A stretch of DNA of 32,005 bases from a virus: positions 1 through 32,005 of IMG/VR virus record IMGVR_UViG_3300031566_000230. The stretch is one strand, 5' to 3'. The position numbers and the translations under genes were made by a program. Below, one piece after another: positions 630 through 26,415 of this stretch (its first letter is position 1; each line of letters opens with the position of its first letter). The notes under the pieces were generated by a model, which saw nothing but the letters and a program-made list of their open reading frames with translations, had not been told where the DNA came from and made no database searches.

Positions 630-2508
630 TCTTCAGGATTCGGTAAAAACTCCCATTATAATTATCTATGATGTAAATGGCCAAGAGTTGATTACGTCTT
701 TTGGAGAAGCTGGGATGTCTGTAGTTGATATGAGATATCTTTATGATGATGAGGATGATGATATTTGTAAGATTAAGATACAGGCAGATAAGGTTAATCC
801 ACTAGATTTGATAAATATAACTTACGGTACAAATTTAGTAGTACAATGGGGATATGCTGGGGGTCCTGTTAGTCCTAAAGCAACTGTAGTGGTAAGGGAT
901 ATTAAGACTAAATATGGGGCTGATATTATATGGGTTGATTTAGAATGTACAGATTATGTTACTTATTTAAAAACCTCTAAGGGGGATAGTTCTGACCAAG
1001 TTACAATATTAGAATACCTTGCAATTAAGAGTAGTAGTGAAAGGGGTTATTCATATAAGGTGGTAATAAAAGAATTTGGTAATATCGTGTATAAACAATC
1101 AAAAGAAAAATTACCAGAGAAAGAAACTGAATGGCATACGGGTCTTAAATATGAGGGGCCAAATTTTGATCCTTGGGAAGATGGGGCTGGTTTAATTAAA
1201 AAAGTAATTGAAAAGATTTTTGATGACGCTACCAAAACCCAGATTAATCCACCACCATCCAATGGCGAGATATACTTAGGTATTAGTGATGAGCTAAGTG
1301 ATTTTTTAAATAAAGAAAGAAATTTCACAGATGGCAATAGATCTCCCTATCAAGTATTGAGAGATGTATTTAAGTATGCCCCTAATGGGCCATGGTATAT
1401 TTCAGGTAGGGGAGATACAATTTTAATACATAATAGGTATTTGGGTAGTGTTCCATTAAAAACTTACAATTATAACCAAGAACCAGGATATCTAATAGAT
1501 TTAGATATTGCTTCTAAATATGAAGCCTTTGAACAAAGATCTGTTTCTTCTCCTTATATGAGCCCAGAAGAAAAGATTGCATATTATGAGGATATATATA
1601 TAAAGGAATTGGAAAATCTACAAGATTTGAATAAGATTATTACTGATAAATCTATATCAAAATATACTAGGAGACAATTATTAACTAATTTTTTAGCAAC
1701 ATATAGGGCTTCTCATATATATAGAGTTCAGAGATTAGATTTAATGGCTTATCGTGCGGGGGGTTATGTTAAAGGAAACTTATTTCCAGCTGATCAAAAA
1801 TATACTACTGGGCAATTTATTATTGATGACCCATCTAAGAATTTAATTGAGGGCCATGTTGCCCCAGTGGGAATGGTATATGATCCTAATTTTATCCCAG
1901 AATTTCAAACTCCCATTCCTTTTCATGTTTATATGTTAGCTGGACAAACTTCAGATGAAAGAAGGGATATGATAGATAATATCGCAAGGGAAGCAGAGAT
2001 GGATAAGATTGAAGCTAATATGATAATAGAGGGAGATCCTATTTTGATAACCGAGACTATAGTTAGATTAGGAAATATTCAAGAAGTTCATTCCGGGGAT
2101 TATTATATTAAGAAAGCAGAACATGTAATTACTAAGCAAGGTTATAAAACCAATTGTGAAGCTTTTAAGATTATGCCTAAGGCTGCTCTTATGGGGATAT
2201 CTCAGACTGCAAGACAAGCCATAGTAGATGAAAATGGGAATATAATAGAGGGTGGAGAAGGTCAAGAGGTTATAGATAGATTTCATAGAGAAGAGGCTTT
2301 ATTTAATGGTTGGAATTTGCAAATATATGTTTCTACTCAAACAGCTGCGGGTATTGGTATTGGCGTACCATTAAGTAAAATTGATATTTATATTCCTTTA
2401 TCAGATTTCATTTTAGAAAGGGAGGGGGTTCCTTTAGATGAATTAGTAGAGGAGATAGAGAAACGACATATAAGAGAATCACGTGAGACTAATGTTGAAG
2501 ACCGATGA
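622..2508 (+). CDS. Baseplate hub protein (gp27 / gpD / XkdQ-like)
   Basis: A 628-residue protein in the hub position between LysM protein and spike. Visible features: an N-terminal beta region with a strongly acidic stretch (YDDEDDDI) followed by 'G..L.VQWGY', a central region with QVLRDVFKYAPNGPWYISG and GDTILIHN (hub beta barrel style), and a C-terminal part (GDPILITETIVRLGNIQ, then SGDYYIKKAEHVI, then GYKTNCEAFK). The last matches the common hub pattern G.p.l..G..i.v.g....sG.y.V....H.i...gY.t. The hub forms a trimer that carries the spike and receives the tail tube (family knowledge). ATG 622 was chosen over ATG 577: the earlier start would overlap the LysM gene by 53 bases. The stop overlaps the next start as ATGA. 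Confidence 0.75.
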   Translation: MANLQDSVKTPIIIIYDVNGQELITSFGEAGMSVVDMRYLYDDEDDDICKIKIQADKVNPLDLINITYGTNLVVQWGYAGGPVSPKATVVVRDIKTKYGADIIWVDLECTDYVTYLKTSKGDSSDQVTILEYLAIKSSSERGYSYKVVIKEFGNIVYKQSKEKLPEKETEWHTGLKYEGPNFDPWEDGAGLIKKVIEKIFDDATKTQINPPPSNGEIYLGISDELSDFLNKERNFTDGNRSPYQVLRDVFKYAPNGPWYISGRGDTILIHNRYLGSVPLKTYNYNQEPGYLIDLDIASKYEAFEQRSVSSPYMSPEEKIAYYEDIYIKELENLQDLNKIITDKSISKYTRRQLLTNFLATYRASHIYRVQRLDLMAYRAGGYVKGNLFPADQKYTTGQFIIDDPSKNLIEGHVAPVGMVYDPNFIPEFQTPIPFHVYMLAGQTSDERRDMIDNIAREAEMDKIEANMIIEGDPILITETIVRLGNIQEVHSGDYYIKKAEHVITKQGYKTNCEAFKIMPKAALMGISQTARQAIVDENGNIIEGGEGQEVIDRFHREEALFNGWNLQIYVSTQTAAGIGIGVPLSKIDIYIPLSDFILEREGVPLDELVEEIEKRHIRESRETNVEDR

Positions 2509-3140
2509 TGTTAAGGACTTTTATAGAAAAAATTATTTACTATGGATTAGAGTCGGTCGGTAAGTACTATTCTTCTTATCGGGGTTATGTTGTAGACAAT
2601 GAGGATCCCGATAAAATGAATAGGGTGAAGGTTCAAGTTCCAGTAATAGCAAGGGGGAAAACTCTTAACGTATGGGCTTGGCCAAAGCATACTTTTTCTG
2701 GGGTAAATTATGGAATTCAGATGCTTCCTTTAAGGGGTGATATGGTATGGGTAGAATTTGAATCTGGGAATGTATCTTCTCCTATGTGGCTCCATGGTCA
2801 TTATGCCTTGGGTGAAAAGCCTCAGGAATTTATTTCCGCTCAAGTATATGGATTTAAAACTCCGAAAGGGCAAATCATTATAATTGATGATAGGGATGAT
2901 GTAGAAAAGATAATAATAAATCATGGTGAGAATGAGGGATTAGTAAAGGTCATAGAATTAACAGAGATGTTAAATAAAATAGAAGATAAAGTAAATAATT
3001 TCTTAGCCCACTACAGGGTCCACCAAGTAATAGACCCAATCTCTGGGATGGCCGGACCAATATTACCTAGTCCCCCTGCTCCTATTAATGTTACAGAAAC
3101 AGATCAGGCTTATATTGAAAATGAAAAAATCTTACATTAA
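2505..3140 (+). CDS. Baseplate spike protein with OB domain (gp5 / gpV / VgrG-like)
   Basis: A 211-residue spike protein. Residues 25-100 form the oligosaccharide-binding fold seen at the base of spikes: YRGYVVDNEDPDKMNRVKVQVP matches 'G.V.dn.DP...gRv.V..P', and LPLRGDMVWVEFESGN with SPMWLHGHY matches 'P..Gd.V.v.Fe.Gd...P...G'. A short region with GFKTPKGQIIIIDD (res ~125) is typical of the start of the beta-helix needle. The rest is a helical or linker region and a Pro-rich end (ILPSPPAPINV). There is no lysozyme domain as in T4 gp5, so cell-wall cutting would need another protein. Start ATG overlaps the hub stop by 4 bases, and the stop shares one base with the next gene (TAATG). Confidence 0.8.
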   Translation: MMLRTFIEKIIYYGLESVGKYYSSYRGYVVDNEDPDKMNRVKVQVPVIARGKTLNVWAWPKHTFSGVNYGIQMLPLRGDMVWVEFESGNVSSPMWLHGHYALGEKPQEFISAQVYGFKTPKGQIIIIDDRDDVEKIIINHGENEGLVKVIELTEMLNKIEDKVNNFLAHYRVHQVIDPISGMAGPILPSPPAPINVTETDQAYIENEKILH

Positions 3141-6100
3141 TGGCACAGAGTAGATCAAGCTTTATAGGTGCAGTTCATACTGCCATGATAGATAACTCTC
3201 GTTATCCTGTCATAGCTGGACAACCTATGCCTAGTGAGATGAGAGATGAAATGGAAGATTCCATGACTAGGTTGGCTGATCCAATATATTCAATGGTTGA
3301 ATCATTCCTATTTGAACCAGCAATCCTTGAACCCTCATATCAAGTTAAGACTCACGTGAATGACCCACTGGCGGGGTATCTTGGGGCTAAGATAGATGAT
3401 AGTACTATTAAATATAATCCCATTACTTTCAAATTATATGTAGCATCGGTACCATTGGCTACAAGTTTAATTACTGGTGGGGTAAGGATAGGGGCTCAAC
3501 CATTTTTATATATGAGTAGTTATAACCTTATGCTTAATGCTGAGACTAATTCTCTATTATTAGGTGGGAATAATATGGTACCTACTTCAAGGGCTGTTAA
3601 ACTATATGTAGATAGTGTGGTTTTAGGATTAGGGGGAGGGAGTGGAGGGGATATGTATAAATCTACCTATGATACTAATACTAATGGGGTAGTAGATGAT
3701 TCAGAAAGATTAAATAATCAGATAGGTTCTTATTATCTTTCTTGGGCTAATTTTACAGGGACTCCTACTACATTGGCTGGATATGGTATAACAGATGTTT
3801 ATACAGAAACTGAGATAAATGCTTTTTTCGAAGGAGAAGCCTCTGGTAAAAAACAAGTAGATTGGGCAAGAATAACAAACCCACCTAATTTATATACAGT
3901 ACAAAATCAAGGTAATAATAAGGTAATAACTAGTAATGATACTGGGTATGATTTACAAGCCGAGGCTAACCTATTATTTACAGGTTCACTACTTACAGTA
4001 ACAGGTGATGCAGATATTACAGGGACTTTAGCTGTGGATATATTACAGGAATATACTACTAGTTATGGAATAGATGTAGTGGATCCAATACGTTTTGATA
4101 AGTTGGATGAATATATTCTTGATGCGGGTGTAACTATTGAAAGTCTTAAAATAGAAGATGGAACATTATATACGGCCATAATTAATATGACATTTCAAGA
4201 TGGAACTACTGGTCCACACACATTAACTCAATTAGCTGCTATGTCTGGAGGAGATGTAACGGCTAATGCTTATACTCAATATGATCTTGCAGTGTGGGAT
4301 ACAGGTACTAAAGTATTGACAGATAGTGGGGGTAACGTTACATGGGGTAGTAATACTTTTTATATAGCAGGACAATCTGGGGTTACTAATATTGAGTTTG
4401 GAGCAAGTGCTAGTACAATAAATCAATTCTTGGTTTATGCGGATAGTAATATAAATTTCACTACTACTATGGCAGCTGGTAGTATTGTGTTTGGGGTGGT
4501 AAAGAATACTGCTTGGGTTGCATTTAATTCATTCCTTTCAATAAGAGGAACCACAGTTCCCGATGCAGCTACATCTGGTTATGGACGTTTATATGTAGAT
4601 GAGGCAGATTCAGATAAATTAAAGTTTAGAACAAGTACTACTATCTATGACTTAACTGTAAATGATATGGTATACCCAGGTGCGGGGATAGCACTATCTA
4701 CTGGGTCAGCATGGGGTACATCGATAACTACCCTTGCAACCCTTAACTCAGCTATTTCAGATGCTACCTTGATAGACACTGCAGATTCACGGTTGTCAGA
4801 TGCCAGGACTCCTCTTTCTCATACTTTACTTAGTCACACTATCTCCGGTGAAACATTGGGTCATGTATTGGCAGCTGACAGTGCTACAACTTATTCTATT
4901 AGGCAGTTATTGGGATCAGAGATAAGCAATGATCTAAGTTGGTTAACTGGTAATCAAACAATAACTTTGTCAGGAGATGTTTCTGGTACAGGAACAACGG
5001 CTATAACTACAACTATTGGAGCTAATAGGGTTACACTCGGAATGATGGCTCAGATTGCTACAGCCAGAATTTTAGGACGTGTCACAGCTTCTACAGGTAA
5101 TGTAGAGTCTTTAACTGGGACTCAGGCAACAACTTTACTTGACCAGTTTGCTACGGCAGCTACAACAAAAGGAGTAGTTCCAGGATCAAATAGCGTAGGT
5201 GCAACATATTACCTTGATGGTTCAGGAGCTTGGTCAGTACCTGCGGGTAGTGGTGATGTAACAGCAGGAACACAATCAAATAATCAGGTAGCCGTATGGA
5301 CATCTACCTCTAAAGAAATAGAAGGAGATGCTAATCTTACTTTTGGAGCATCTACCTTGGCTGTTAAGGCAGCAACTACTGTAGATGCAGTGCTGGCTTT
5401 ATGGTCAGGGGCAGCAGTAGCAGCCTTTGTATATAATAATACCGGGGATCTATTTACTATTCAAGATGAATTAGATGCGACACAATTTTCTGTTGCTTTT
5501 GGTGGGGCAACTTCATTATATTATGGTACAGAAGGAATTAAACTTGCAACAATTAGTGGAGGTGTCCAAGTAACAGGGTATTTAGGTATAGGTACTAATA
5601 ATCCATATAATAACTTAGAGGTTGTTGGTATTATAAAAGGACATGGAGAATATGGGGGAATAGTGGTAGATGACCAGTATGATGTAAATAGGAGAATAGG
5701 GTTAATAAAATATCCCGGTTATGAAGGGGCACTTGTGGCAGGAAGTAGTTCTAAACTTAGATTAGGTCACAGAACGGATAGTAATGATATTGTTACAACG
5801 CTTGGTACGTTTAGGGAAGAATTAGTAATTGATACAACGGGTTATGTAGGTATAGGTACTCCTAGTCCTCGTGCTTTATTAGATATATCAACAGGATTTC
5901 TTGTCGGCACAGGATTAGAGCTGCCTCATGTAGTCAAGAAAGTTGCAAGTGCGAATCTAAGAAATTCGCATAATGCAGAAGCATCTACTGATTCAACAAG
6001 TTATGTAAAATTAAAGACAATAACTTTGACAAACGGATTAGTCGGACAACATAGGATTAAATTTGATATGAGGGCAACTTCAGACAGTTATATAGTCTAT

Positions 6101-6322
6101 GGTAGAATTTACCGTAATGGTGTGGCATTAGGCACTGAGCAGTCTACAATAAGCACCACGTATGTAACATTTTCACAGGATATCACGCAAACTTGGAATC
6201 CCGGTGATACTTTAGAATTATGGGTAAAATGCACATTAGCTGAAACACCTGCATACGTTCAGAATTTCGGCATATACTATGATGATTCTCCAACAGTAGC
6301 AGTAGCAGTTGTGAATAGTTAA
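3140..6322 (+). CDS. Large tail fibre / receptor-binding protein
   Basis: A 1060-residue fibre. The N-terminal ~130 residues look like an attachment region (IAGQPMPSEMRDEMEDSM, then a VNDPLAGYLGAKIDDSTIKYN segment). The centre is Thr/Gly/Ala-rich beta repeats, including three loosely related copies of 'NN.vav....k.i..d.nLtfg.stL.v' near residues 255, 385 and 715, and HTLLSHTISGE / SGDVSGTGTTAI motifs common in fibres. Two GIGT motifs (YLGIGTNNP about residue 815 and YVGIGTPSP about 905) are typical of the segment just before a C-terminal S74 chaperone. Instead, the last ~125 residues are a compact beta-sandwich-like tip (QHRIKFDMRATSDSY, TWNPGDTLELWVKC). The tip is poorer in GGG and richer in CG than the rest, suggesting a swapped module. 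Its role is presumed host binding; the receptor is unknown. Confidence 0.75.
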   Translation: MAQSRSSFIGAVHTAMIDNSRYPVIAGQPMPSEMRDEMEDSMTRLADPIYSMVESFLFEPAILEPSYQVKTHVNDPLAGYLGAKIDDSTIKYNPITFKLYVASVPLATSLITGGVRIGAQPFLYMSSYNLMLNAETNSLLLGGNNMVPTSRAVKLYVDSVVLGLGGGSGGDMYKSTYDTNTNGVVDDSERLNNQIGSYYLSWANFTGTPTTLAGYGITDVYTETEINAFFEGEASGKKQVDWARITNPPNLYTVQNQGNNKVITSNDTGYDLQAEANLLFTGSLLTVTGDADITGTLAVDILQEYTTSYGIDVVDPIRFDKLDEYILDAGVTIESLKIEDGTLYTAIINMTFQDGTTGPHTLTQLAAMSGGDVTANAYTQYDLAVWDTGTKVLTDSGGNVTWGSNTFYIAGQSGVTNIEFGASASTINQFLVYADSNINFTTTMAAGSIVFGVVKNTAWVAFNSFLSIRGTTVPDAATSGYGRLYVDEADSDKLKFRTSTTIYDLTVNDMVYPGAGIALSTGSAWGTSITTLATLNSAISDATLIDTADSRLSDARTPLSHTLLSHTISGETLGHVLAADSATTYSIRQLLGSEISNDLSWLTGNQTITLSGDVSGTGTTAITTTIGANRVTLGMMAQIATARILGRVTASTGNVESLTGTQATTLLDQFATAATTKGVVPGSNSVGATYYLDGSGAWSVPAGSGDVTAGTQSNNQVAVWTSTSKEIEGDANLTFGASTLAVKAATTVDAVLALWSGAAVAAFVYNNTGDLFTIQDELDATQFSVAFGGATSLYYGTEGIKLATISGGVQVTGYLGIGTNNPYNNLEVVGIIKGHGEYGGIVVDDQYDVNRRIGLIKYPGYEGALVAGSSSKLRLGHRTDSNDIVTTLGTFREELVIDTTGYVGIGTPSPRALLDISTGFLVGTGLELPHVVKKVASANLRNSHNAEASTDSTSYVKLKTITLTNGLVGQHRIKFDMRATSDSYIVYGRIYRNGVALGTEQSTISTTYVTFSQDITQTWNPGDTLELWVKCTLAETPAYVQNFGIYYDDSPTVAVAVVNS

Positions 6323-6359
6323 ATAAAAACGAAAATAAAAATCAGCATAATGGGAGTAA

Positions 6360-6731
6360 CAGAATAACAAATTTAGAAAATCAATAAATTATGACGAAAG
6401 GTTAAAAACAAATATCACTATTTTTAATGATGATGCTCTTTCTATTCTTAAAATATTTAATCCTAGAAAATTTGAGTGGAAATCTGATCCAGGTAAGATA
6501 AGGAACGGGTGGATTGCACAAGAGGGAGTTAATTATATCTCAGATATGTTTCCATTGGTTAAAGAAACAGGGATGTATGCCCTTGCAGAATTTGAGATAC
6601 TACCTTATTTTCATAGAGGGATTGTTCAACTTGATGAAAGATTAATCAAGGTAGAAACTTATGAAGAAAGGATTGCTCGTCTTGAAGAAGAAGTTGCTGA
6701 TTTAAAACAACAACTTAAAAATGTAGCATAA
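6360..6731 (+). pseudogene. Stranded S74-type intramolecular chaperone fragment of a tail fibre
   Basis: The frame is open from 6360, just after an in-frame TAA at 6357, and translates into a near-complete peptidase S74 (endosialidase-type) chaperone domain: NYDERLKTNI, ILKIFNPRKFEWK, NGWIAQEG, FPLVKETG, then a C-terminal coiled coil (RIARLEEEVADLKQQL). Such domains fold fibre trimers and then cut themselves off. There is no ATG, GTG or TTG in frame before ATG 6546, which falls in the middle of the domain, so only a 61-residue C-terminal piece could be made. The usual catalytic Ser in S-D-x-x-L-K is Tyr here (Y-D-E-R-L-K). Best explained as the former C-terminus of the preceding fibre, cut off when a new tip was acquired. 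The 61-residue remnant might still be expressed. Confidence 0.75.
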
Positions 6732-6763
6732 TGTATTATTATTGATCTGGGACTAAGAACTAG

Positions 6764-6811: not shown

Positions 6812-7159
6812 ATGAGAAAGATTAAAATTGAGAAAACTAAGATTACTGAGGACAAAGTTAAATTTCAAGGTGATAAGAACAAAGAACTTGATTATAAAGA
6901 TTTAATAGGGATAGCATTGGATGTAGTACCTCAAGGAGGTTTTACCCCAAAGGATATCAGGGAGAGAAATCGTATTCAGGATGCTTTGGATAAGGCAACA
7001 ATAACCACAATTGAACTAGAAGATGCCGATTATGATAACCTTGAAAGGGTGGTTAAGGATTCTCGTTGGAGTTTACGAGATAAAGAATTGAATCAGTTTC
7101 TACAGAACTTCGAAGACGGAGTTTATAAGAAAGATAAGAAAGACTTACCCACACCATAA
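6812..7159 (+). CDS. Unknown small phage protein upstream of gp25
   Basis: A 115-residue charged protein (many Lys, Asp and Glu). Visible parts are a Lys-rich beta start, a middle helix pair (PKDIRERNRIQDALDKA) and 'TIELEDADYDNLERVVKDSRW', ending in a Lys-rich tail. I do not recognise the family with certainty; small proteins with an 'iel.dadye.l...v....w' segment are found in structural clusters of other tailed phages. Its stop shares one base with the ATG of the gp25-like gene (TAATG), so the two are likely co-translated and it may serve in baseplate or tail assembly. No membrane segment or signal peptide is visible. Confidence 0.6.
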   Translation: MRKIKIEKTKITEDKVKFQGDKNKELDYKDLIGIALDVVPQGGFTPKDIRERNRIQDALDKATITTIELEDADYDNLERVVKDSRWSLRDKELNQFLQNFEDGVYKKDKKDLPTP

Positions 7160-10166: not shown

Positions 10167-11447
10167 ATGTCCCAAAAACAATCAACAACATACCAATCAG
10201 ATATCCTTTCCTATCCTTTGAGGGATTCTATGGTAGGAATACTACAACCAGGTAGATATAAGGGGTTTGATTCTCTTACCGAATACCAAGCTCAATCTGG
10301 TGATATCATTTATGTGCAGATAGGCCAAACTAATGGTCAGAATAAATATGATGGTGATGGGGCTGATCCCCCAACCCTTGAAGCAGAAAGGAGTATTGCT
10401 GTAACAACTCAAGGTGTTATTATAGCTGAGGATTTTGTTGCTGCGGCTGCTACATATCGGGATAGCCTTACACTTACTACTGCCCCTGTTAATGGGATAT
10501 ATCATATCTTGTATATGGAACATATTTATGATGATGTAAATCCTGGGGCTAATCCTGCTACTTATGGATGGGTATCTGGAACTGATAACGATACTCCTCC
10601 TGCTTTACCAAGCCCAACAAAACAAATTGCATTAGGGTATTTATACCAACCAAAAGAATCTTCTGGTGTATTTCCCCTTTGTGAATGGTATCTTGCTACT
10701 CCAGTAGTGGGGGATATTGAAATGGTTAAAGATCTGTTTAAGCTTGATGCTAATGGTGTAAGAATAGACAAGGGAACTATACCAGCTGGTGGTATTATAG
10801 GAAACAGAGATTATTCAGCGAATTATTTAACTATTTATTCTTCTATTACTGCAGCTTTATCTGCATTGGATGCTGCTTTAAAGGTTAGAGCAAATGCTAT
10901 AACAACTCTTCAAGGAACTAAATTAGATGACTGGGCTATTCCTGATGATAATATAGATCTGAATGCTACTTCTACTTATCATGGATTATTACCTAAACTT
11001 CCTACTACTAATTCTACTCTGAAATTTTTAAGGGGAGATGGAACTTATACTGTTCCCCCTGGGGGTAGGTTTGTAATGATGACAGGTACTTTTGGAACGC
11101 ATCTAACTTTAACAGATGCAGATCCAGATGCAGGTCAAATAGATTTAGGGGTAGCTGGAGTTCCTGCTGATGCAGATGTATTATTAATACATGTACAGAT
11201 TACTACTAAATCTACTACTCCTACAGGTTATAATGTTACTTGTAGTTTTAGGGTGGCTGCAACCGGAGGTTATAACGGGGAATGTAGAGCTCACAATAAC
11301 CATGATGCTGCAGCTGCTGTAACAAAATCTTGCCAGATAACGATACCTTGTAATTCTAGTCAGAATGTTTATTACCAATTAGGAAATAAAACATACTTAC
11401 AGGATTGCTTTATTACTGTAGTGGGGTGGCAGACTTACACTCCATAA
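10167..11447 (+). CDS. Second tail fibre / receptor-binding protein
   Basis: A 426-residue fibre. Residues 1-190 form an attachment region with aromatic beta strands (GIYHILYMEHIYDD, PTKQIALGYLYQP). A short helical linker (AALSALDAALKVRANAITTLQGTKLDDW) follows. Residues ~270-300 carry the common fibre motif 'ST.HGLLPKL......LKFLRGDGTYTVPP'. The C-terminal ~120 residues form a beta domain with several Cys (CSFR, ECRAH, SCQIT, PCNSS, DCFIT), likely the receptor-binding tip. It follows the gpI-like gene after 149 non-coding bases. Its final 35 bases overlap the end of the opposing sigma-like gene. The receptor is unknown and no enzyme motif is seen. Confidence 0.7.
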   Translation: MSQKQSTTYQSDILSYPLRDSMVGILQPGRYKGFDSLTEYQAQSGDIIYVQIGQTNGQNKYDGDGADPPTLEAERSIAVTTQGVIIAEDFVAAAATYRDSLTLTTAPVNGIYHILYMEHIYDDVNPGANPATYGWVSGTDNDTPPALPSPTKQIALGYLYQPKESSGVFPLCEWYLATPVVGDIEMVKDLFKLDANGVRIDKGTIPAGGIIGNRDYSANYLTIYSSITAALSALDAALKVRANAITTLQGTKLDDWAIPDDNIDLNATSTYHGLLPKLPTTNSTLKFLRGDGTYTVPPGGRFVMMTGTFGTHLTLTDADPDAGQIDLGVAGVPADADVLLIHVQITTKSTTPTGYNVTCSFRVAATGGYNGECRAHNNHDAAAAVTKSCQITIPCNSSQNVYYQLGNKTYLQDCFITVVGWQTYTP

Positions 11448-12063
11448 AATGTTCTTTAGCTTCTTTTATCCAATACTCAGTTTCAGACCTAAGATCATTT
11501 ATATATAAGGAACTATCTCTGATGGGTTCTAAATCAAGATACTCGGCAATTAATTTGGCGGGTATTTTTGTTTGACTTGACCCAAGTTTACTAAGGATAA
11601 ATGGGGGTGGGTTTAATTCTATTTCTAATACTAAAAAGGCATCATCACAAAGATTTTTCTTAAGATAGGTTAATGCTAATTCAAGAAATACTTCATGGTT
11701 GGATATCTCATTATTAATAGGTATAATATTTATCAGGTTATATTCTCCTTCTAATCTAACTTCATTATTATAAATATTATATTTAGAGTAAGCCTTTCTT
11801 AACATTCGGAATTTGAATGTTTTAAGAGCATTAATAATCCTACCTTTTAATTGCCCCTCTTCAATATCCCCATAGTATTTATTGAACACGAAGATAAACT
11901 TATCATCAAACCATGATTTTATTATGTCTGAAGTAACACCGTATCTTCGGTGATCAATTTGGTAAGTAAGTAAGTTCCGGAGGGCTTCTGTTTCTTTGTA
12001 AAGTTTATTGAAGAGTTGTTGATTATACCCTTCCTTCATCGGAAGTAACCTGTGAATCTCCAT
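11413..12063 (-). CDS. Putative divergent sigma-factor-like protein
   Basis: The only convincing minus-strand gene: 216 residues from ATG at 12063 (a TTG at 12072 would add three residues). Residues 50-95 (FDDKFIFVFNKYYGDIEEG, then LKGRIINALKTFKFRMLRKAY) look like a sigma region 2 helix pair, and residues 138-200 (CDDAFLVLEIEL, later IPAKLIAEYLDLEPIRDSSLYINDLR) resemble region 4 with a helix-turn-helix 'iA..L.l......y...lr'. Phages with long late modules often encode a divergent sigma (T4 gp55 is an example). The match is by pattern only, and a different DNA- or RNA-binding helical protein is possible. The opposite orientation and place between structural and replication modules fit a regulator. 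It overlaps the fibre end by 35 bases. Confidence 0.45.
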   Translation of the reverse strand: MEIHRLLPMKEGYNQQLFNKLYKETEALRNLLTYQIDHRRYGVTSDIIKSWFDDKFIFVFNKYYGDIEEGQLKGRIINALKTFKFRMLRKAYSKYNIYNNEVRLEGEYNLINIIPINNEISNHEVFLELALTYLKKNLCDDAFLVLEIELNPPPFILSKLGSSQTKIPAKLIAEYLDLEPIRDSSLYINDLRSETEYWIKEAKEHFMECKSATPLQ

Positions 12064-12210
12064 ATTTTTCAAGAATAAGTATTGTAGATATTCAAATATA
12101 TATAATAATTTTTAAATATGCAAATACCCTAATGTAAAACTTATTAACAGCGGATTTAGCTTATCCGATGTATTACTATACTATTATAAAATATTGCATA
12201 AATTAGTTTC
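12064..12210. promoter_or_regulatory. Divergent intergenic region with TACTATTA motif
   Basis: This 147-base AT-rich gap separates the minus-strand sigma-like gene from the plus-strand helicase, so it must hold promoters for both directions unless the helicase is read through. TACTATTA stands at 12179-12186, followed by TAAAAT and 24 bases before the helicase ATG. A small inverted repeat, CGGAT/ATCCG with a 7-base loop, lies near 12151. No strong ribosome site is seen before the helicase ATG. Confidence 0.45.
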
Positions 12211-23182: not shown

Positions 23183-23926
23183 ATGGCAAAAGAAACATTA
23201 AAAGAAAGGCTAAAGAAAAAGAAGGAAGAACTGAAGGCTAGGAGTCAGCAGGGAGCCATCTATTTTCAGAAGGCAGACACTACAGTTCGGGTTCGTATCC
23301 TGAATATGGGTGAGGAAGAGGAGTTTATTAAGGAGGTAACTCAATTCTATTTGGGGTCAGATATTAAGGGGGTAATATCTCCTGATACTTATGGGGAACC
23401 CTGTGGAATTAACGAGGCTTATGAAGAGTTAAAAAACTCAGATGAGGATGATGAAAGAGAATTGGCAAGTAAATTCTCGCCTCGTAATAGATATCTGGCA
23501 TTCTGTGTATTTTATAAAAGTGAGAAGGGTGGGGAGATTGATGAAAACCTGAGTCCTAAATTTATCCTACTTTCATCAGGAGTTTATCAGGAAATCTTGG
23601 AAAAATACCTGGATGAGAGTGAATGGGGAGATATGACAGATCCAAAAGATGGGTATGATATTAAGATTACCCGTACTGGGTCAGGTAAAATGGATACAGA
23701 ATATTCTGTAACTCCTTGCAAGAATACCCCTACGCCTAAGGGATTTACTGGGGTCTATAACTTGGATGAAGAGGTCCGTAAGATTATGCCCAGCTATGAA
23801 AAAACCAAAGAGTATATCAATCAGTATCTTGGTTTGGATCCTGAGGATGAACCAGATGCTGGTAGGGGTAAGAAAATAATCAAGAAGAAAATAATTAAGA
23901 AAAAGAAATCAGATCTTGATTCCTAA
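23183..23926 (+). CDS. Single-stranded DNA-binding protein (gp32-like)
   Basis: A 247-residue protein with a basic N-terminus (LKERLKKKKEELKARSQQG; in gp32 this part drives cooperative binding) and an OB-type core: VRVRILNMGEEEEFIKEVTQF, FSPRNRYLAFCVFYKSEKGG, PKFILLSSGVYQEILEKYL and DGYDIKITRTGSG..TEYSVTP. The conserved aromatics fit the ssDNA-binding surface of gp32 relatives. The usual acidic tail is represented by DPEDEPDA, but it is followed by a Lys-rich stretch (KKIIKKKIIKKKK) before SDLDS, which is uncommon. It is followed at once by recA (TAATG). Confidence 0.75.
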   Translation: MAKETLKERLKKKKEELKARSQQGAIYFQKADTTVRVRILNMGEEEEFIKEVTQFYLGSDIKGVISPDTYGEPCGINEAYEELKNSDEDDERELASKFSPRNRYLAFCVFYKSEKGGEIDENLSPKFILLSSGVYQEILEKYLDESEWGDMTDPKDGYDIKITRTGSGKMDTEYSVTPCKNTPTPKGFTGVYNLDEEVRKIMPSYEKTKEYINQYLGLDPEDEPDAGRGKKIIKKKIIKKKKSDLDS

Positions 23927-26415
23927 TGATAGTTAAAAAGAAAAAACCAAAGGCTGGGATTGTATTAACTGATGCTCAGATGGCTAAGAAATATCGGGGG
24001 TCTGGGTTAGCTAGTGAGATTTCTGTAATGCCAGAGGATGCCCTCTGGATACCTTCTCGTAGTATTTATCTGAATTATACTACGGGTGGTGGGGTTCCTT
24101 ATGGGAAAATCTGTGAGATATTTGGGGGGGAAAGTTCTGGTAAATGTTGTGGTTTAAATACACGATTATTTTTACCTGATATGGGGATTATAGAAATGGG
24201 TAATTTAACTCAATTATCTAAAATTTCTACAGAATTGGGTATTGGTAAAATCACTGGGATAATTGATACTGGTACTATTAAAACAGTAAAAATTACTACC
24301 AAAGCTGGGTTTGAATTTGTTGGGGGTTATAGTAATCATAAAATTAAACTACGGGATCTAGATGGTAATTGGGAATGGCATTATATTAGAAATTTAAAAA
24401 TCGGGGATAATATACCAATAGCTTATGGTATGAATGTTTTTGGGAAATTAAAATATATTAAAGGTTATCCTTTAGATAAAGATATGGGGTATGCTTTAGG
24501 ACTATTATGTGGTGATGGCAATATAACTATAGACCATATTTCGATGACTGCTGAGAAAAAGTGTTTATCTTTATTAGAATTTTTAATACAATATTTAAAA
24601 AGGTTTAAAGTAGAAACCCAAAATCATCAAGGGGTTATTCAATCCCAAGCGGAAATACAATTAAGAAAAGGTAACTATAATTTACAAAGAAGTGGAAAAG
24701 AATTAGGAAATTGGTTAAAACATTTCCCCGAATTAATAAATAATTCCCATAATAAAAGAGTCCCTAAATTAATACTTACTTCTCCAAAAGAAACCCAAAT
24801 TGCATTTATACAGGGGTATTTTGATACTGATGGTAATTCTTCTAAAAAATCACCACAGGTCAGTGTAACTTCTGTATCAAAAGAGTTAATCCAAGATATT
24901 CAAATGATGTTATTAAATTTTGGAATAGTTAGTAATATTACTATAAAGAAAACTAGTTGGGTAAATAAAAATACAGGTAAAAAGAATAAAAGTATTACTA
25001 ATCGGTTAACTCTTCGAGGATATCAAGCTATGAAATTTAAGGATATGATTGGGTTTAGGTTAAATTATAAATTTAAGATATTATCACAAAGTCGTAGAAG
25101 GAATACTAAACCCATGTTTGAAAGTATTAAAGAGTATTCTAGTTATGATATAGTAAAACTACCTGATTATTTATTTCCTAGATTAGAAAACTTTTATAAA
25201 AATTTAATAGCCCCTAATAAATATTTGGGCTCACAGTTAAGATATTGGTTATATAATAAGGGAACTAAAAAATATAAAATTTCTGGATCTATTCCTTTAA
25301 AAAATCTTTATACCCTTTTAAAATATACACAAAATAAAGGGGATTTTGATAAGGTATTATATGACTATACACAAAGTCAATATTTTTATGACCCTATTGT
25401 TTCGATTGAATTAGAAAACCAACCAACTAAGGACATTGAAGTTAGCCCTTCTCATTCTTATATATCAAATGGTTTTATTTCACATAATACTTTGGTGGCT
25501 ATGGACTATGCTTACTCTACTCAATATCTTGGGGGTATGGTTTTTTGGAATGATGCAGAACAATCCTTTGACCCTTGTTGGGCAGAACAAAACGGATTAG
25601 ATCTAAATAAGATAATCATTTATAATGAAACCTCGATTGAAAGGATATCAGACTGGGCTGCAGACATGGCAGTAACTTGGAGATCGAAGTTAAAAAATAA
25701 TGAACCTATCTTAATCGTAACTGATTCAGTTGCTGCTCTTGATTGTGAAGAAAATATAAATTCACAACAAACAGATGCTAAAGCAGAGATGGGGAATCGA
25801 GCTAAGGCCTTTTATAAATACCTAAGGATAAGGAACCAGTTATTTTCAGATTTAGGCATAACTCTTATATTTATTAACCAACTTAGATCAAAGGTAGGTG
25901 CAACTAAATTCGAAGATCCGGATACTACCCCAGCTGGGAATGCTATGAAATTCTTTGCCCATCAGAGACTTGCCTTTTTTCAGAAAAAACAAATAACTCA
26001 GGGACTTAAGGAAAGGAAAATCTGGTTAGGCAATGAGGTATCAGTTAGGATGAAGAAGAATAAGGTTGCACCACCTCGTCCTACTTTTACTACTGAGATA
26101 TATTTTAATGCTGAGTACGGAAGAGTGGGGTTCGAGCGATACACTAATCTCGTCGAGCTATTGGTAAAGACAGGAGTCGTTAAGAGAAGGGGCAGTAATT
26201 TCTATTTCAAGGATGAAAAGCTTGCTACTAGTAAAGATAATTTTCAAGAGTTATTAGAAGCTGATGATTTGTTGAGAAGAAAACTATTGAGACGAACCAA
26301 AGTTAATACTTTGTCAGTAACTCAGGGTAAAATTAATAGGCTTAACAATAATAATATTAATAGATATCCAGTAACAATTAAAGCTCCTAGAAAAACCGAA
26401 GAAGAGGATGTTTAA
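23926..26415 (+). CDS. recA: RecA recombinase interrupted by an intein
   Basis: The 829-residue precursor contains a 448-residue intein (residues 74-521); the spliced protein would be 381 residues, normal for phage/bacterial RecA. The P-loop starts GGESSGK (67-73), and after the intein continues with T522-LVAMDYAYS, restoring GESSGKT. Then NDAEQSF (the catalytic-Glu segment), Walker B ILIVTDSVAAL (~595), and FINQLRSKVGATKFEDPDTTPAGNAMKFF, close to RecA 'INQlR.Kig....g.p.ttpGG.alkf'. RecA drives strand exchange in recombination-dependent replication. Stop/start overlap with the SSB (TAATG) and an 8-base overlap with the 5' nuclease gene link the operon. The N-terminus is Lys-rich (IVKKKKPKAG). 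Confidence 0.93.
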   Translation: MIVKKKKPKAGIVLTDAQMAKKYRGSGLASEISVMPEDALWIPSRSIYLNYTTGGGVPYGKICEIFGGESSGKCCGLNTRLFLPDMGIIEMGNLTQLSKISTELGIGKITGIIDTGTIKTVKITTKAGFEFVGGYSNHKIKLRDLDGNWEWHYIRNLKIGDNIPIAYGMNVFGKLKYIKGYPLDKDMGYALGLLCGDGNITIDHISMTAEKKCLSLLEFLIQYLKRFKVETQNHQGVIQSQAEIQLRKGNYNLQRSGKELGNWLKHFPELINNSHNKRVPKLILTSPKETQIAFIQGYFDTDGNSSKKSPQVSVTSVSKELIQDIQMMLLNFGIVSNITIKKTSWVNKNTGKKNKSITNRLTLRGYQAMKFKDMIGFRLNYKFKILSQSRRRNTKPMFESIKEYSSYDIVKLPDYLFPRLENFYKNLIAPNKYLGSQLRYWLYNKGTKKYKISGSIPLKNLYTLLKYTQNKGDFDKVLYDYTQSQYFYDPIVSIELENQPTKDIEVSPSHSYISNGFISHNTLVAMDYAYSTQYLGGMVFWNDAEQSFDPCWAEQNGLDLNKIIIYNETSIERISDWAADMAVTWRSKLKNNEPILIVTDSVAALDCEENINSQQTDAKAEMGNRAKAFYKYLRIRNQLFSDLGITLIFINQLRSKVGATKFEDPDTTPAGNAMKFFAHQRLAFFQKKQITQGLKERKIWLGNEVSVRMKKNKVAPPRPTFTTEIYFNAEYGRVGFERYTNLVELLVKTGVVKRRGSNFYFKDEKLATSKDNFQELLEADDLLRRKLLRRTKVNTLSVTQGKINRLNNNNINRYPVTIKAPRKTEEEDV
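24145..25488 (+). mobile_element. LAGLIDADG intein in the RecA P-loop
   Basis: A self-splicing protein element of 448 residues between Gly-Lys (K73) and Thr (T522) of the P-loop. The N-end is Cys74 with the C....T start, block B has GGYSNHKI (His138; Thr of TxxH replaced by Tyr), the C-terminal block F is DIEVSPSHSYISNGFISHN and ends with His520-Asn521, followed by +1 Thr. Two LAGLIDADG halves, GYALGLLCGDGN (189-199, D197) and FIQGYFDTDGN (294-304), form a DOD homing endonuclease. The intein is AT- and Lys/Asn-rich. All splice residues look intact, and it very probably spreads between RecA genes of related phages. Confidence 0.92.

Follow-up and report, generated by a model that had tools for sequence, protein, structure and literature searches.

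A stranded S74 chaperone domain behind a complete tail-fibre gene, a probable relic of fibre-tip exchange in a virus fragment

Introduction

Why does a phage carry the coding sequence of an S74 intramolecular chaperone domain behind a tail-fibre gene that already ends with its own stop, in a frame whose first half offers no standard start codon? The question is raised by positions 6360-6731 of IMG/VR virus record IMGVR_UViG_3300031566_000230, of which positions 1 to 32,005 were analysed and are here called the window. The S74 domain usually assists trimerisation of the C-terminal part of a fibre and then cuts itself at a serine. A sequence-only reading of this DNA had taken the frame either for the tail that a fibre discarded in a tip swap or for a split part that acts in trans. 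We propose that 6360-6731 was probably once the 3′ end of the fibre gene in an ancestor and was left behind in such a swap, as a recent relic. Three features of the locus are given first.

6360-6731, plus strand: stranded S74 (intramolecular chaperone) coding sequence of 123 codons, the first half without a standard start, the dyad serine replaced by tyrosine.
3140-6322, plus strand: tail-fibre gene, an open reading frame (ORF) of 1060 aa, complete with its own stop, with an N-terminal part common to the fibres of sister contigs.
6323-6359, plus strand: AT-rich non-coding seam of 37 bases between the fibre stop and the S74 frame, holding ATG 6350.

Results

The S74 frame and its boundaries

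The frame 6360-6731 codes for a complete Peptidase_S74 domain. In a profile search, Pfam Peptidase_S74 (PF13884) aligned to residues 12-55 of its translation at 33.9 bits (curated cut-off 22) and E=4e-8, and PHROG tail-fibre families also match, as far as the domain end. The AlphaFold model, with a mean predicted local distance difference test (pLDDT) of 90, has the complete S74/ICA fold with its C-terminal helix, and its confident PDB matches belong to the S74 family only, namely MyRF ICA 7dc3, 3gw6 and 3gud (7dc3 best; template-modelling score 0.60-0.68; E-values 0.005-1.3; probability up to 1.00), which bears out the earlier statement that a nearly full S74 domain is readable from 6360. When the gap was simulated by 2000 first-order Markov sequences, the longest open run was 107 codons and 123 was never reached; the coding score of the frame ranks at the 71st percentile among the genes of this phage, and its synonymous codon usage is typical for the phage (z +0.74).

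The frame ends at TAA 6729-6731 and is immediately preceded by an in-frame TAA at 6357-6359. The domain is not fused to the fibre, from which it is parted by the stop TAA 6320, the 37-base seam and a change of frame. The sequence-only reading had placed it at this distance from the fibre stop and without a start until mid-domain, and both statements are correct, the first in-frame ATG, GTG or TTG being ATG 6546 at codon 63. The missing start codon and the stop directly upstream support a relic. An alternative genetic code was rejected, as the upstream stops are TAA and the other genes of the genome are normal under table 11, and so was read-through of the fibre stop, which gains just 14 residues before TAA 6365, in the wrong frame for S74.

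Two ATG codons were considered as starts, the first of which opens a further feature.

6546-6731, plus strand: 61-aa ORF from ATG 6546, comprising the C-terminal half of the domain and a coiled coil; probably not a real gene.

Translation from ATG 6546, for which the earlier reading proposed a check, appears unlikely from its poor start context (17th percentile among true starts) and from a product in which the N-terminal half of the domain would be missing. ATG 6350, within the seam, reads MGVTE and stops at TAA 6365, one base off the S74 frame; its context reaches the 57th percentile of true starts, and 9% of other ATGs are equally good. This good context, and a frame that overlaps the S74 frame by five bases, could point to a free-standing S74 gene that begins at ATG 6350 and only looks broken by a one-base indel, be it a recent mutation or an assembly error. 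However, about 24% of seams of this kind would contain such an off-frame ATG by chance, and no free-standing phage S74 was found that could serve as a model, so that we regard a gene of this form as quite unlikely.

The cleavage motif and the conserved residues

The loss of the catalytic residue concerns a single position in an otherwise well-kept motif.

6390-6407, plus strand: YDERLK, a degenerate SDxxLK cleavage motif, from alignment with 34 S74 domains; serine stands at its first position in 61 of 61 sampled loci.

In this alignment the catalytic serine of SDxxLK is indeed tyrosine (codon TAT, 6390-6392), as had been read from the letters, and the remaining invariant or nearly invariant S74 columns are retained (D12, R14, L15, K16, N18, G50, A53 and Q54). 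The 61 loci, drawn from genome and viral collections, were found with patterns that allowed serine or tyrosine at the catalytic position, so other residues there are under-sampled. The dyad lysine (K16) is present and the dyad serine absent; because self-cleavage of S74 depends on both together (PMC3828593), this copy should not cut itself even if it were made.

The fibre tip

The fibre in front of the seam closes with a module of its own.

5891-6319 (core about 5942-6280), plus strand: beta-sandwich module that forms the C-terminal tip of the fibre and stops at a natural domain end.

The module makes up the last about 140 residues of the fibre and is predicted by AlphaFold as nine strands (pLDDT 86), in a fold that resembles carbohydrate-binding modules (CBM), C1q-like domains and the lambda gpJ tip; a weak BclA_C match (E=5e-4) stays below the cut-off. 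Homologues with 36-48% identity occur in 13 viral contigs, which amount to 12 distinct proteins as L027 and L028 carry the same one, always at or near the protein C-terminus; the proteins differ outside the module, and each stops soon after it. The fibre stop is the natural end of this module and not a premature one. S74 was undetectable in all records that carry the module, several of which are fragments, and it would therefore appear that the module needs no S74 to fold. The new tip would probably attach to the host receptor and close the trimer unaided by S74. The synonymous codon score of the tip is low (10th percentile of the phage's genes, z -1.4), a deviation not significant alone; together with the native usage of the S74 frame it points the way one would expect if S74 were resident and the tip imported.

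Fibre ends in related contigs

A baseplate-V spike gene (2505-3140) adjoins the fibre gene and served to find related contigs; it has the same neighbour in three related loci, L008, L005 and L006. The L008 fibre is the closest, with 56% identity over the N-terminal 287 aa, and ends with its contig before the tip is reached; the first ~90 aa of the window fibre are 38% identical to L005 and L006. Of the genomes behind the latter two, G003 (L006) has the same spike and baseplate neighbourhood and a fibre that ends in a fused S74 with an intact SSDARLK, while no S74 was found in G001 (L005). The DNA of these two is 91% identical in the baseplate region, 96% over most of the fibre shaft and 97% after a divergent part, which runs through the fibre end and the next, small genes (L005 9877-12125, L006 9382-11298). 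This comparison implies that phages of this group swap the fibre end as a cassette, of which S74 is a part.

The L005, L006 and window fibres thus have like N-termini with exchanged C-termini, and the sister fibres include both S74-ended and non-S74-ended versions of the same fibre. The window shares with G003 and G001 the baseplate spike, the fibre N-terminus and the gene order up to the fibre; it differs in that S74 is fused and has its serine in G003 and is lost in G001, neither of which holds a stranded copy. The S74 domains of the window and of G003 are 35% identical. The searches turned up no relative that combines this arrangement with a real start codon, and no close relatives of the S74 fragment in the viral contig collection; the phage collection gave a single match of 28%, in Javan362, where S74 is fused to a hyaluronidase.

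Since fibre ends vary between phages as nearly identical as G001 and G003, and short-read assemblers err at such places, the S74 end of one fibre strain variant might have been joined in assembly behind the tip of another. But the seam is an ordinary spacer between genes, and the sequences flanking it stand in the expected order ahead of the gene at 6812, which has a counterpart in L002; we hold a chimera to be very unlikely.

Survey of free-standing S74 domains

Whether S74 ever stands alone bears directly on the idea of a split fibre. In all 61 sampled loci the domain lies within a longer frame and is preceded by at least 38 residues, no free-standing S74 appeared among the sampled loci in phage or viral contigs, and no account of a phage S74 that acts in trans or is separately encoded was found in the literature library that was searched. 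The motif GIGTxxP was dropped as a marker of the usual S74 junction, being upstream in just 2 of the 61 loci, and an eight-sequence S74 alignment proved too divergent as a search query.

A cell survey covered 148 genomes from the phylum of a Bacteroidales metagenome-assembled genome (MAG). Among its 77 S74 matches were three frames of 160 aa or less, in L107, L108 and L109. In L107, from a Bacteroidales MAG, an in-frame TAA severs the S74 end from its gene (minus strand, about 2870-3320). L108 (4109-4528), L109 (3717-4127) and a further locus, L111 (1501-1953), hold small free-standing Bacteroidota proteins of 137-151 aa. Each of these begins like a signal peptide and has an S74 domain without the SDxxLK motif, so free-standing S74-like proteins that lack the usual motif do exist in cells.

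On the supposition of a split fibre, the S74 part would be translated as a protein of its own and fold the fibre in trans without cutting. Translation could come from ATG 6350 with a +1 shift, from a non-standard start such as ATA 6384 or ATT 6420, or from ribosomes that re-initiate once past the fibre stop. Such a non-cleaving role would explain why the serine is dispensable, and it suits an intact frame with native codon usage and a predicted full S74 fold, the improbability that neutral decay would remove the catalytic residue alone, and the motif-less S74-like proteins of Bacteroidota cells. A Shine-Dalgarno motif precedes only 3 of 30 phage genes, whose starts are AT-rich, and a start-like AT-rich context lies ahead of 6350, 6384 and 6420. 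Yet a standard start is absent and no frameshift site is recognisable, the survey offers no free-standing viral S74, the records with the same tip module do without S74, and the known S74 domains act within the same chain (PMC3828593, PMC8217332). The trans-acting part proposed by the earlier reading, with no positive comparative support, is in our judgement unlikely. If true, it would mean a phage S74 chaperone that was cut loose, lost its serine and folds the fibre in trans.

Discussion

Based on these comparisons, we favour the reading of 6360-6731 as a relic of a fibre-tip swap. The ancestral fibre would have ended in S74, as the G003 fibre still does; a self-folding beta-sandwich tip that brought its stop codon along (about 5891-6322) would then have been recombined in ahead of S74. 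The fibre would thereby have become complete, and the S74 codons that trail it would no longer have been translated. The tip swap itself is well supported by the sequence comparisons; we infer that the ancestor of this very fibre most likely ended in this S74, that the S74 frame is untranslated and that the exchange was recent. The discarded tail of the sequence-only reading thus gains support from sister contigs with both kinds of fibre end and from a promiscuous tip module that elsewhere occurs without S74.

Several observations weigh against this account. No stop interrupts the 123 codons, and eight core residues of S74 are intact although exactly the catalytic serine is lost; among open cases, a neutral-decay simulation, simple and applied post hoc, gives this combination no more than about 5% of the time. 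The searches yielded no close relative that has this fibre end, so the ancestral state is drawn from a distant sister; the foreign origin of the tip is only weakly visible in codon usage; and a misassembly of the contig is conceivable at a strain-variable fibre end. Loss of the serine may predate the tip swap or have occurred where recombination joined the two parts; alternatively, the domain may still function in a non-cleaving form. It is because of the misfit with neutral decay, and of ATG 6350, that some weight is left to a trans chaperone and to a gene that merely looks broken. To our knowledge, a separately made S74 of this kind would have no precedent in phages as an assembly chaperone that stands alone and does not cleave.

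A fibre end that lacks a start and follows a complete fibre also has the typical look of a silent cassette, and the S74 end could be a reserve tip that site-specific recombination switches in, as in invertible fibre cassettes. The octamer GCATAATG at 5968, 6345 and 6726 might be cited for this, but S74 is oriented in the same way as the fibre, the octamer and the 80-85% direct and inverted repeats are near chance and unconvincing as flanking repeats, and no recombinase was noticed near by in the 32-kb fragment, where no systematic search for one was made. A silent reserve tip seems highly unlikely. The copies of the octamer, all on one strand, lie in the tip (5968-5975), before the S74 frame (6345-6352) and at the S74 stop (6726-6733); the window holds four against 1.3 expected.

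A relic is also favoured by the gene spacing in this tightly packed virus fragment, in which baseplate and tail genes are followed by replication genes. The gap from the fibre to the gene at 6812 measures 489 bases and other gene-free gaps at most 149; the sole longer gap holds a minus-strand ORF. This ORF (11413-12072, 219 aa) has no Pfam match; part of it, read on the plus strand as GSKSRYSAINLAGIFVF, is found again in L002 at about 10727, which shows the DNA to be conserved there. Elsewhere in the window, a RecA-like gene (23926-26415) is split by an intein that carries a LAGLIDADG endonuclease and seems to have entered at the Walker A motif (GESSGK/T).

If the swap is read correctly, the locus preserves the replaced part of a fibre behind the tip that supplanted it. 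This suggests that a single recombination event may free a fibre from the need for S74 in assembling its C-terminal part, which presupposes that the incoming tip folds on its own.

Comparison with known systems

Separate fibre chaperones are known in T4 gp38 and gp57A and in the Tfa proteins of Mu and lambda, which fold the fibre in trans. These small genes, like the window S74, lie directly behind a fibre gene; they belong, however, to unrelated families with normal start codons, whereas the window S74 is start-less and its product putative. With the S74/CIMCD domains (PF13884) of phage fibres and spikes, such as those of the K1F endosialidase (3gw6) and the GA-1 appendage (3gud), the window domain shares profile, conserved residues and predicted fold, and it differs from them in the absent start, the lack of fusion to the fibre and the change of the dyad serine to tyrosine. 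A close parallel is offered by the MAT fibres of Bdellovibrio, of the S74 and NS74 subfamilies, in which S74 was replaced by a beta-sandwich tip and C-terminus exchange during evolution has been described (PMC10769870). The S74-to-beta-sandwich exchange seems alike in both, the tips being likened by fold class only; in the MAT fibres the exchange is complete, whereas in the window phage the replaced S74 still lies behind the new tip. The locus is a clear instance of a known module exchange and not a new system.
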